The notes under the pieces were generated by a model, which worked only from the letters and a program-made list of their open reading frames with translations, was not told the DNA's origin and made no database searches. From positions 1-22,643 of IMG/VR virus record IMGVR_UViG_3300025133_000629: DNA of 22,643 nucleotides. One strand, 5' to 3'. Both the position numbers and the translations under genes were made by a program. The DNA comes from a virus. Below are positions 740-18,887 of this stretch, in pieces; position 1 is the first letter of the stretch; the number at the start of each line of letters is the position of its first letter.

Positions 740-817
740 ACTACCATTCTAAGAAAGAAAAACATTGAACCTCTTTTTGTTTATATAAATAAATAACTTT
801 AGTCAATGATACTTACT

Positions 818-881
818 TAGTATTACTAAGAGTGTAGTAGTTTTTACTTCCATTTTTTCTACTGCACTTTTAGTAGTATTA
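818..881 (+). promoter_or_regulatory. 23-bp hairpin in the ssb leader
   Basis: Positions 818-840 pair without interruption with 859-881 around an 18-nt pyrimidine-rich loop. Four of the 23 pairs are G-U in the rightward RNA (820-879, 823-876, 830-869, 835-864). These would be A-C mismatches on the other strand, so the structure suits the ssb mRNA leader and not the antisense. No T run follows, so it is not a terminator. Candidate roles are an RNase III processing site, mRNA stabilisation, or control of ssb translation. Confidence 0.7.
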
Positions 882-896
882 CTTAGAATACTGCTA
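871..896 (+). repeat. Inverted repeat overlapping the long leader hairpin
   Basis: Positions 871-880 pair with 887-896 (10 pairs, one of them G-U) around a 6-nt loop. The left arm lies mostly within the right arm of the 818-881 hairpin, so the two structures exclude each other over 871-881. A separate 15-bp palindrome with a single central base (816-830, CTTAGTA-T-TACTAAG) also overlaps the first arm and could be a protein-binding site. Confidence 0.5.
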
Positions 897-16136: not shown

Positions 16137-18887
16137 TTACCATCTCCAAGGGCCCGGATTATTTCCATACCCTGAACCACCCCAGTTTATCTTTGGAACA
16201 GTCATATTATTTTGTGTCTTAGCTACCATTGGTTTAATTTGTGCCATGCTATGTGGCCCAGCAGGTGGACTAAATATACTTACTACATTTGCAGGTGTTA
16301 CCTTAGGAGGATTTCTTCGTGCTTCTGCTTCTGCTGCTGCTTTTGCTGCTGCTGCTTTTGCTACTTGAGCAGCTTGAGCTTCTGCTTGCATAACAACCCT
16401 ATCAATAGGATTAAACACACTTAGCGGAGGATTTCTTCGTGCTTCTGCTGCTTCTGCTGCTTTTGCTGCTTTTGCTTCTGCTGCTGCTTTTGCTTCTGCT
16501 GCTGCTTTTGCTACTTGAGCAGCTTGTGCTTGTGCTGCTGCTTGAGCTTGTACTGCTGCTTGTGCTTCTGCTGCTGCTTTTGCTTCTGCTGCTGCTTTTG
16601 CTACTTGAGCAGCTTGTGCTTGTGCTTGCATAACAACCCTATCAATAGGATTAAACACACTTAAAGGTATGTCTTCAGCTACATTTTGAAATAAACTTTC
16701 TCCCATATCAGTGCCTTCTTGCTCTCTAGCATATTCAGGTATGTAAGAAGTAGCGTTAGCTTGTCTCATGTCTTGCTGTTCTCTTGCTAAAGCAGCATTT
16801 TCTCTACCAGCATTACCACCAAACGCAGATAAAGTAGCATTAAGTATTTCTTTTAACTCAGCTTCTGCACTAGCATCTGTTTTACTGCCTGCATATTTAG
16901 CATCAATTGCTGTCATTGCATCATTTAATGCCCCCATATCACCACTTGTTAATTCTCCTGTATCTGGAGCAAGCTCGGCTTCTGTTAATTCTCTAGGTTT
17001 AATACCTTCAAATGTTGCATAGTCAGATGGTTCAGTAGCTTGTTCAGTTCCGTATGTACGGTTAGGTATTTGGTAAAGAGGTTGTTTTTCAGTAGCTCCA
17101 GTAAGTGGCTCTGTACCTAAGTCATCATGCCAAGCAAAATAATTACCTGTCACATCTTGATAATAATCCTCACCTTCTTTGCCCTCAGGTCTAAATGGTG
17201 GAGTTGGTATGTCTATTTCAGCATCTTTCCAAATACTTCTTTCTGGGCCAAGTTCTACTGGTATTCCATCTATACCACCATACACCGGTTTATATTCTCT
17301 TTTAGGTTTGGGATTTAGTATAGCATCTTGAAATATTTGTCTAGGGTCTCCTTCATCAAATATAGTAACACCATCAATCATATTATTATTTTGAGTGGCA
17401 TAATCCATTATTTGCTGTGTTCTATCTGTTATACCTCTAGCCTCAAAATCATCTAAGTATCCTTGCATGTCTGTTGGCATAAGTGAAATACCCGCTTCTA
17501 CATCAGCAGTATCATCCATAGTTGTACCACGTTGTGAAGTAAGCATACCTCTTTCTATATCAGCAGTATCATCCATTGCAGGAGCACCGGCAACAGGAGT
17601 AGCAGGGAAACCAAGCCTATCACCCATAGCTAAGTCTGCTAATTCTTGATTTACTGCCATGCTTCTATCTTGTGCTCTAAATTTTAACAAATCTGCTAAA
17701 GCTCTTCTTTGTGTTGCTGCTGCATCTGCTTCTTGTAATTGAGCATCCATAGGCCACCCAGTAAGAGGAGCATCTTGTAGCATTCTTTCAGTTAATGTAG
17801 GGCTGTCTCCCGGACTAGGGAATAGTGTGCTAGGAGGAGGATTGTTAGGGCCAAATATACCCATCTCATCAATTGTCTGTTGGTATGTTAAATCTCCAGC
17901 AGAACTAGGAGGTCTAGGTGTAATACCACTAGGTAAACTTCCACCTATTATTTGATTACCACTACCAGTGAATCCCGGCATACTAACATCAGCACTAACT
18001 GGTTGTACACCTTCCGGTAATTCAACTGCTGGCATATTTATTGCAGCATCCGCAGGCCCTTGAGGTTCTGGAGTTGTTGGAGTAGCAAACTGTCCAGAGA
18101 AATAAGGGTTGGCTATATCAGCTGGTGAACCCCATACATTGTATGCTGCACCATCTGTAGGTAATCCTTGACCATAGGTATATTCAGATAAACCACCCGG
18201 CCCAGCGTAATTAAATAAAGAAGAGTCATTATACGCAGACAAATCTGGTGCATATACAGTGCCTGATGGTGTGCGTGAGGTAAATGGGAATGTACGAGTT
18301 CTTAGTACAGGTGCTGATGGTACTGAACCACCACTACTATTACTATAGCCACCACCACCACCACTGGAACGAGAATCATTAATTAAAGAATCAGCTAATG
18401 CTGGATTGTAGGGCACATCATCTAATCCTAACTCCCAGCCCGGAAGTAAATCGCCAACATTATCATAGCCTCTATTGTAAGAATTATGAGTTCCCACAGC
18501 ATTAACATTTATTTCGTCATCTTTCCAAGGTCTTTCAGTAACAGCAGTTCCACTCCTTGGAGTAGAAACATAAGGTCTGTCAGAGGATGATGTAGAAATT
18601 GTTGGCCCTTTCTTAATAACTATAGTGGGCAAACTACTTATACCATCAAGCTCTGGAACTTCACCACCACCATATGTTAAATCCATATTGTCCGACATAA
18701 AAGTATCATCAAATAAATTACTAGGTGTTGTAAAAGAAGTTGTAAAGTTAGATGTTGCTGATTCATTTGGGTCATAACTTGAACCACTTGTAAGAAAATT
18801 TGTAGCTGCATCAGTAACAGGCGATATAAAATCTAATACAGGCTCAAGATTATGTATCGATTGTTTCCAGTAATTTTCTAGTCCCAT
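16137..18887 (-). CDS. Large low-complexity virion protein with duplicated Ala-rich module
   Basis: The 916-residue product has three zones. Residues 1 to about 380 are rich in Gly, Ser, Thr, Pro and Tyr and look disordered. About 380-745 is acidic, with repeated MDDTAD blocks. About 750-890 holds an alanine-rich helical region built from a duplicated module: LSVFNPIDRVVMQA, an Ala/Glu/Gln/Lys tract, then EARRNPP. The first copy has the longer tract. The composition suggests an extended structural or ejection protein; no enzyme motif is seen. AAGGAG lies upstream of the ATG, and the gene follows the previous stop by 9 nt. The opposite strand of the Ala tract reads as poly-leucine and is not a gene. 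The product name is inferred from position and size only. Confidence 0.65.
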   Translation of the reverse strand: MGLENYWKQSIHNLEPVLDFISPVTDAATNFLTSGSSYDPNESATSNFTTSFTTPSNLFDDTFMSDNMDLTYGGGEVPELDGISSLPTIVIKKGPTISTSSSDRPYVSTPRSGTAVTERPWKDDEINVNAVGTHNSYNRGYDNVGDLLPGWELGLDDVPYNPALADSLINDSRSSGGGGGYSNSSGGSVPSAPVLRTRTFPFTSRTPSGTVYAPDLSAYNDSSLFNYAGPGGLSEYTYGQGLPTDGAAYNVWGSPADIANPYFSGQFATPTTPEPQGPADAAINMPAVELPEGVQPVSADVSMPGFTGSGNQIIGGSLPSGITPRPPSSAGDLTYQQTIDEMGIFGPNNPPPSTLFPSPGDSPTLTERMLQDAPLTGWPMDAQLQEADAAATQRRALADLLKFRAQDRSMAVNQELADLAMGDRLGFPATPVAGAPAMDDTADIERGMLTSQRGTTMDDTADVEAGISLMPTDMQGYLDDFEARGITDRTQQIMDYATQNNNMIDGVTIFDEGDPRQIFQDAILNPKPKREYKPVYGGIDGIPVELGPERSIWKDAEIDIPTPPFRPEGKEGEDYYQDVTGNYFAWHDDLGTEPLTGATEKQPLYQIPNRTYGTEQATEPSDYATFEGIKPRELTEAELAPDTGELTSGDMGALNDAMTAIDAKYAGSKTDASAEAELKEILNATLSAFGGNAGRENAALAREQQDMRQANATSYIPEYAREQEGTDMGESLFQNVAEDIPLSVFNPIDRVVMQAQAQAAQVAKAAAEAKAAAEAQAAVQAQAAAQAQAAQVAKAAAEAKAAAEAKAAKAAEAAEARRNPPLSVFNPIDRVVMQAEAQAAQVAKAAAAKAAAEAEARRNPPKVTPANVVSIFSPPAGPHSMAQIKPMVAKTQNNMTVPKINWGGSGYGNNPGPWRW
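16306..16663 (-). repeat. In-frame direct repeats coding the Ala-rich duplicated module
   Basis: Three exact or near-exact repeat families lie here. A 41-nt unit occurs at 16383-16423 and 16623-16663 (240 bp apart). A 45-nt unit with one mismatch occurs at 16306-16350 and 16426-16470 (120 bp apart). A 64-nt unit occurs at 16473-16536 and 16563-16626 (90 bp apart). All spacings are multiples of three, so the repeats keep the frame of the 916-residue protein and look like recent in-frame duplications. Confidence 0.88.

Follow-up and report, generated by a model that had tools for sequence, protein, structure and literature searches.

Background

The locus described here raises the question of whether two hairpins that cannot exist at the same time, located in the leader of a phage gene for a single-stranded DNA-binding protein (SSB), are maintained by selection as RNA and, if so, whether they could act as a switch of gene expression. 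The leader lies in a tailed-phage fragment 22.6 kb long (IMG/VR record IMGVR_UViG_3300025133_000629, positions 1–22,643; the whole stretch is referred to as the window). It was described in an initial annotation made from the sequence alone, whose observation is confirmed and whose interpretation is partly supported by the analysis below.

Genomic setting of the ssb gene

The left part of the window carries the rightward gene order ssb, primase-helicase (PHROG 239), family A DNA polymerase, and class II ribonucleotide reductase. The ssb gene (936–1322, + strand) encodes a 128-aa OB-fold protein with an acidic tail ending in F. Neither Pfam nor PHROGs recognised its product, and its identity came from the predicted fold: the AlphaFold (AF2) model (pLDDT 80) matched the Enc34 SSB (5odk, E 2.0e-6) and T7 gp2.5 (1je5, E 9.1e-5) in Foldseek. 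As an annotated ssDNA-binding protein is also found directly before the primase in isolates with a related polymerase, the name ssb given by the initial annotation is sound, and the product is, judged by its modelled fold, an SSB.

An intrinsic terminator was called upstream of the ssb unit (616–638, + strand), followed by a sigma-70-type promoter (TTGACA-N17-TACAAT, 711–739, + strand; 11/12, with TG before the -10 box), from which the predicted transcript would start at ~746 and carry a leader of ~190 nt. A -10-like box is present 180–220 nt 5' of the ssb ATG in the relatives whose upstream sequence was available. Between ssb and the primase-helicase, a separate promoter (1324–1352) and a terminator-like hairpin (1353–1376) were found on the same strand (1324–1376, +). 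Given its own promoter, the preceding terminator and the separate promoter of the next gene, ssb is probably a single-gene transcription unit with this ~190-nt leader.

In four relatives (L012 at ~1205–1295, and also L008, L013, and L014), the place of the ordinary terminator of the window, adjoining the ssb promoter upstream, is taken by T-arm-like tRNA remnants (GGGTTCGA/AATCCCCC) followed by T-runs. ARAGORN called no tRNA at these remnants, which are possibly tRNA pieces in new use as terminators. Elsewhere in the window (16137–18887, - strand), a large structural-type protein contains long Ala/Gln/Lys-rich repeats near its C-terminus, opposite which spurious poly-Leu frames arise on the + strand.

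Architecture of the leader

The region which the initial annotation had proposed for folding (746–940) indeed folds better than its shuffles (z -3.65, 1/200 shuffles). It begins with a 5'-proximal hairpin, P1 (763–808, + strand; 763–768 with 803–808 in the MFE structure), which is found in most relatives with unrelated sequences, the folding z of the 5' domain ranging from -0.1 to -7.5 among 21 leaders. The long stem starts ~75 nt into the leader, and the two-hairpin element, all of it on the + strand, lies 38 nt 5' of the ssb ATG. It consists of a left arm, L (818–840), an 18-nt pyrimidine-rich apical loop (841–858, UUUUUACUUCCAUUUUUU), a right arm, R (859–881), which pairs with L, and an alternative hairpin, P3 (871–896), whose 5' strand is the 871–880 segment of R. 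The apical loop is kept in most relatives and cut back in L186, where most of the motif is gone. Further downstream lies an AU-rich ribosome-binding stretch (910–927, + strand, AUGUUAACUAUAAAGGAG) that is conserved in the leader alignment; over all of IMG/VR, the exact 18-mer is confined to 10 ssb leaders apart from a single unrelated coding sequence.

The palindrome at 816–830 (+ strand, CTTAGTATTACTAAG), described initially as one of 15 bp, does exist, but as an odd palindrome of 15 nt whose arms are 7 bp long; once the long stem is open, it could fold into a hairpin of 5–6 bp (P2). We rejected P2 as a conserved helix, as it was 90.5–93% paired without a clear double change, and its pairing decays in two lineages (L185 and L188).

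Several lineages conserve the predicted 5' end of the transcript (746–753, AUUCUAAG), which shows complementarity to 882–889 (CUUAGAAU in the lineage of the window) as well as to CUUAG at 816–820. In L185, the sequence of the 5' end is AUUCUAGG and that in L is CCUAG, a difference that may represent a further compensatory change involving a possible third partner strand.

Selection on the long stem as RNA

Homologues of ssb down to 56–63% identity were collected in three protein-guided scans of IMG/VR, and their leaders were aligned as a set of 23 non-redundant sequences and as a second set of 21, which additionally took in L217 and L254 as the most distant members; L185 had to be aligned in a shifted register. 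In the window, the long stem consists of the 23 uninterrupted standard pairs reported in the initial annotation (818–840/859–881), 19 of them Watson-Crick and four G-U (820–879, 823–876, 830–869, and 835–864); the latter are, as had been noted, specific to the rightward RNA, since the opposite strand would give A-C. The covariation check suggested at that time in related leaders showed that both stems are retained. In the 23-leader set, 97.0% of the 529 cells of the long stem are paired, a value that falls to 31–59% when the partner is slid by 1–3 columns as a control, and double compensation occurs in 8/23 pairs (47 double-changed cells vs. 13.5 in shuffled data). Pair 837–862 is individually significant across the alignment (E 0.017), and the stem has a near-constant length of 23–24 bp in all members. 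The 9-bp inner helix (832–840/859–867) is paired in 207/207 cells of the 23-leader set, while its sequence changed repeatedly (GUGUAGUAG, GUGCGUUGA, GUGUGACAG, GUGCAACAG, and GUACACUGG).

In order to guard against kinship inflating the compensation counts, independent evolution was simulated on a tree for which only the ssb gene was used. On this tree, 14 double-compensated branches were inferred for the long stem over 21 distinct leaders (SSB homologues down to ~60% identity) against 0.9 ± 0.9 expected (0/300 simulations), under a null that begins with a paired ancestor and so measures resistance to breaking plus compensation. The excess of G-U over A-C cells (81 vs. 4 in the 23-leader set) identifies the rightward strand as the folding strand. 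These comparisons bear out the selection for RNA structure that the initial annotation had proposed: by the pattern of its substitutions, the long stem is under selection as RNA.

The same counts bear on the possibility that the repeats act as DNA, either as paired palindromic operator sites or as a primase hairpin or plus-strand origin. In favour of this, each half forms an inverted repeat (816–830 and 871–897) and TAGTATTAC occurs twice in the window (at 818 and 874); however, the inner helix covaries without conservation of sequence, and the G-U to A-C ratio is not what a duplex site would lead one to expect. The second copy of TAGTATTAC is TAGTATTAA or otherwise altered in most relatives, for which reason it was also rejected as a Rep-type origin motif, and every relative with upstream sequence available has the element downstream of the promoter and ahead of the start codon. 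We therefore consider a role as DNA very improbable.

A transcription attenuator, in which the inner helix followed by UUUU would be a weak terminator under the control of P3 or the long stem, finds its motive in the UUUU that follows the inner stem in the window. This U-run is, however, short, and the relatives do not conserve it (UGUU in L018, CUU in L217, CCU in L186, CCUU in L188), and no terminator-like site was called after the inner stem, so that attenuation was rejected as a candidate and is disfavoured to the point of being barely credible.

The right arm is shared with a competing hairpin

P3 (871–880 with 887–896) comprises 10 pairs, one of them U-G, and, as it shares 871–880 with the long stem, the two are mutually exclusive, just as initially described. 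It is paired in 98% of cells in the 23 leaders, with a core (870–876/891–897) common to all lineages and a length varying between 6 and 10 bp because indels after R were matched on both sides. R is among the slowest-changing parts of the leader (0.62–0.67 changes per column vs. 1.8–2.6 in the inner helix). At two of its shared bases, changes were matched by changes in both partners: A875 is replaced by G in 7/21 leaders of the second set, with C at its P3 partner 892 in L130, L186, and L188 and U elsewhere (G-U), and with U (U-G) or C at its long-stem partner 824 (U824C in L188), while in L217 the change 877 U→G is found together with 822 A→C and a C in the strand downstream of R (S, 890–897). 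R is thus held by two partners.

In the two-state RNA proposed here, state A would be the default, with L and R paired as the 23-bp stem under its loop. In state B, S would capture the lower part of R into P3 and L would fold on itself as P2, leaving only the inner helix (829–840/859–870) and its loop. Because L, R, and S would be transcribed in this order, the long stem should form first and be the resting state; state B would be reached only if something holds L or the loop, or if the loop gets cut.

The initial annotation had named compensatory changes preserving both stems as support. P3 taken by itself showed no formal excess of double compensations (the single one observed was reached in 69/300 simulations). 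Its pairing was nevertheless maintained on the ssb tree through 19 changed branches (97.5% vs. 81.2 ± 6.5%). The energetics were evaluated with nearest-neighbour estimates by forbidding the L:R pairs and comparing the best remaining fold with shuffles of the S strand. Among 21 leaders, state B costs 1–10 kcal/mol over state A (mean 4.4, window 1.1), against 9.3 when S is shuffled; the native cost is below its own shuffled mean in 21/21 leaders, which are related and do not amount to 21 independent tests, and six of them (L019, L023, L130, L185, L187, and L188) are individually not separated from their shuffles. The covariation evidence for P3 is weaker than that for the long stem, and the energy test is the clearer of the two. 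Taken together, the comparisons indicate that both mutually exclusive helices are conserved and that the leader is a conserved two-state RNA and a good switch candidate; we regard the element and its two states as highly probable.

Distribution among phages

Pattern scans of IMG/VR for each half of the element found the halves together only in front of ssb, and a covariance model returned a single strong copy in each genome, in every case before ssb, its weaker opposite-strand match being the mirror of the strong copy. The model had no match in four isolate genomes (HTVC104P, CRP-403, HTVC115P, and HTVC121P), and the ssb leader of HTVC104P forms a different hairpin (z -1.5). The isolate phage collection contained neither an SSB homologue (tblastn) nor a DNA match, and no relative was found in the GTDB species genomes. 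Rfam 15 gave 0 matches at the gathering cut-off, the best sub-threshold one being mir-8338 (23.8 of 80 bits). The element family belongs to uncultured marine phages and lies outside Rfam.

According to the initial annotation, relatives with the same ssb gene should not lack either stem. Both stems are kept in the 21–23 aligned leaders, but L244–L247 and L249 retain an ssb homologue and a structured leader in which the model finds no element, so the link between element and ssb is strong, not absolute. The leaders of L244 (1328–1503), L249 (1330–1503), and L247 (10–191) have a different structure with repeated CUUAG/CUAAG or CCUAG/CUAGG units and possible alternative pairings of their own, and may represent this element in diverged form. 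In L254, a ~200-nt stretch (1260–1480) with a small open frame from ~1279 lies between P3 and the ribosome-binding stretch, with the element and the conserved AUGUUAAUUAUAAAGGAG intact on either side.

Access to the ribosome-binding site

A direct gating of translation by the two hairpins is not supported in the form initially put forward. The Shine-Dalgarno sequence is predicted to be about equally open in states A and B in most leaders, neither state hiding it by nested pairing, which speaks against its sequestration in one state there, and a state change alone need not alter translation. State B lowers the predicted openness from 0.56 to 0.26 in the window, and it is also lower in L186–L191. 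The ribosome-binding stretch is AU-rich and largely open in the window, and a further hairpin is present there in many relatives. A pseudoknot between the apical loop and the Shine-Dalgarno sequence was likewise rejected, as duplex energies were no better than those of shuffled loops (P 0.14–0.96), and so was a mini-ORF (AUGUUAACU...) 5' of ssb, whose frame and stop are not conserved (alignment inspected by eye). The conserved and unpaired parts are the U-rich loop UUUUUACUUCCAUUUUU and AUGUUAACUAUAAAGGAG before the start codon.

What could operate the switch

The leader may be a cis-acting two-state RNA that tunes ssb expression post-transcriptionally, with SSB itself as the likeliest effector. 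When in excess, SSB would bind to the U-rich loop and also to the AU-rich ribosome-binding stretch (898–935), tilt the equilibrium between the two states and repress ssb translation, on the model of T4 gp32, whose binding starts at a folded element and extends from there across a Shine-Dalgarno region without structure. The U-rich loop and AUGUUAACUAUAAAGGAG are plausible candidate targets for an OB-fold protein, and their conservation in unpaired form, together with a layout like that of the T4 gene 32 operator, leads us to favour SSB as an autogenous regulator. Taken as one statement, a two-state leader element that tunes ssb with SSB as the favoured ligand is, in our judgement, evenly poised between true and false; that SSB is the ligand is put forward tentatively and with some doubt.

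The main rival to autogenous control is nuclease processing or mRNA stability. RNase III processes leaders of T7 and lambda N, and could here cut the 23-bp stem (~two A-form turns), or RNase E the U-rich loop, after which the 3' product would begin with R and S, fold into P3 and cap the processed ssb mRNA. The near-perfect stem exceeds the ~20 bp such a substrate needs (23 pairs in the window, 97% paired in relatives) and hardly varies in length; the loop is long, single-stranded, and AU-rich, and P3 would win only after a loop cut or the removal of L, which fits the energy lead of the stem. Processing alone leaves the conserved loop sequence and the conserved AUGUUAACUAUAAAGGAG unexplained, and we rate it as unlikely. 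These same unpaired conserved segments suggest sequence recognition, and with the retained two-state design they could also point to another trans-acting factor setting the state, be it a host RNA-binding protein, an sRNA or a metabolite, in a riboswitch-like or protein-operated manner. No Rfam family matches and no candidate factor is at hand, though, and the linkage to ssb fits the ssb product at least equally well, which makes such a factor decidedly unlikely. Autogenous control by SSB, which the initial annotation had already offered as a hypothesis, remains our preferred reading.

Comparison with known systems

To our knowledge, one tailed-phage SSB operator is well described, that of T4 gp32 and its relatives. 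The gene 32 operator of T4 and RB69, a ~28-nt pseudoknot with UUAAA/UAAA repeats (PMC535899), resembles the present leader in its position in a phage SSB mRNA, in the order of a folded 5' element and an AU-rich Shine-Dalgarno stretch that is, in the window, predicted to be little structured, and in being conserved among near relatives and diverged in farther ones (PMC535899). In contrast, the present element combines a 23-bp stem with a competing hairpin, and the SSB, a putative ligand, has the Enc34/T7 gp2.5 fold. We did not file the leader as a gene 32-type operator, because a pseudoknot between loop and Shine-Dalgarno sequence, the only type searched for, is unsupported. The STAXI motif (RF01728), a tandem pseudoknot of Enterobacteriales, is likewise a candidate structured element near ssDNA-binding protein genes (PMC2864571), whereas the element described here is single-copy with a different fold, and the RF01728 covariance model gave no match, whether at the gathering score or with E allowed up to 10. 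Type I toxin mRNAs (PMC6733600, PMC11228461) and riboswitch expression platforms likewise have mutually exclusive hairpins that share one strand and compete in energy; neither state of the ssb leader is predicted to hide the Shine-Dalgarno sequence, and it has no known ligand or antisense RNA. With the RNase III-processed leaders of T7 early mRNA and lambda N, the present leader shares a long stem of substrate size, and it differs from them in its competing hairpin and conserved loop.

A new family of autogenous SSB-mRNA switches, in which an SSB of the T7 gp2.5/Enc34 fold flips a leader whose R strand pairs with either L or S without a pseudoknot, is possible but rather unlikely. The carriers are marine phages without an isolate in the collection searched, and a strand with two obligatory partners is a rare case in which the evolution of the sequence is enough to reveal both states of an RNA switch. 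The system is also compact (190 nt and a 128-aa protein), small enough for direct tests. If true, a two-state leader before a T7-type SSB would show that the control of SSB dosage has more than one origin and makes use of different RNA folds.
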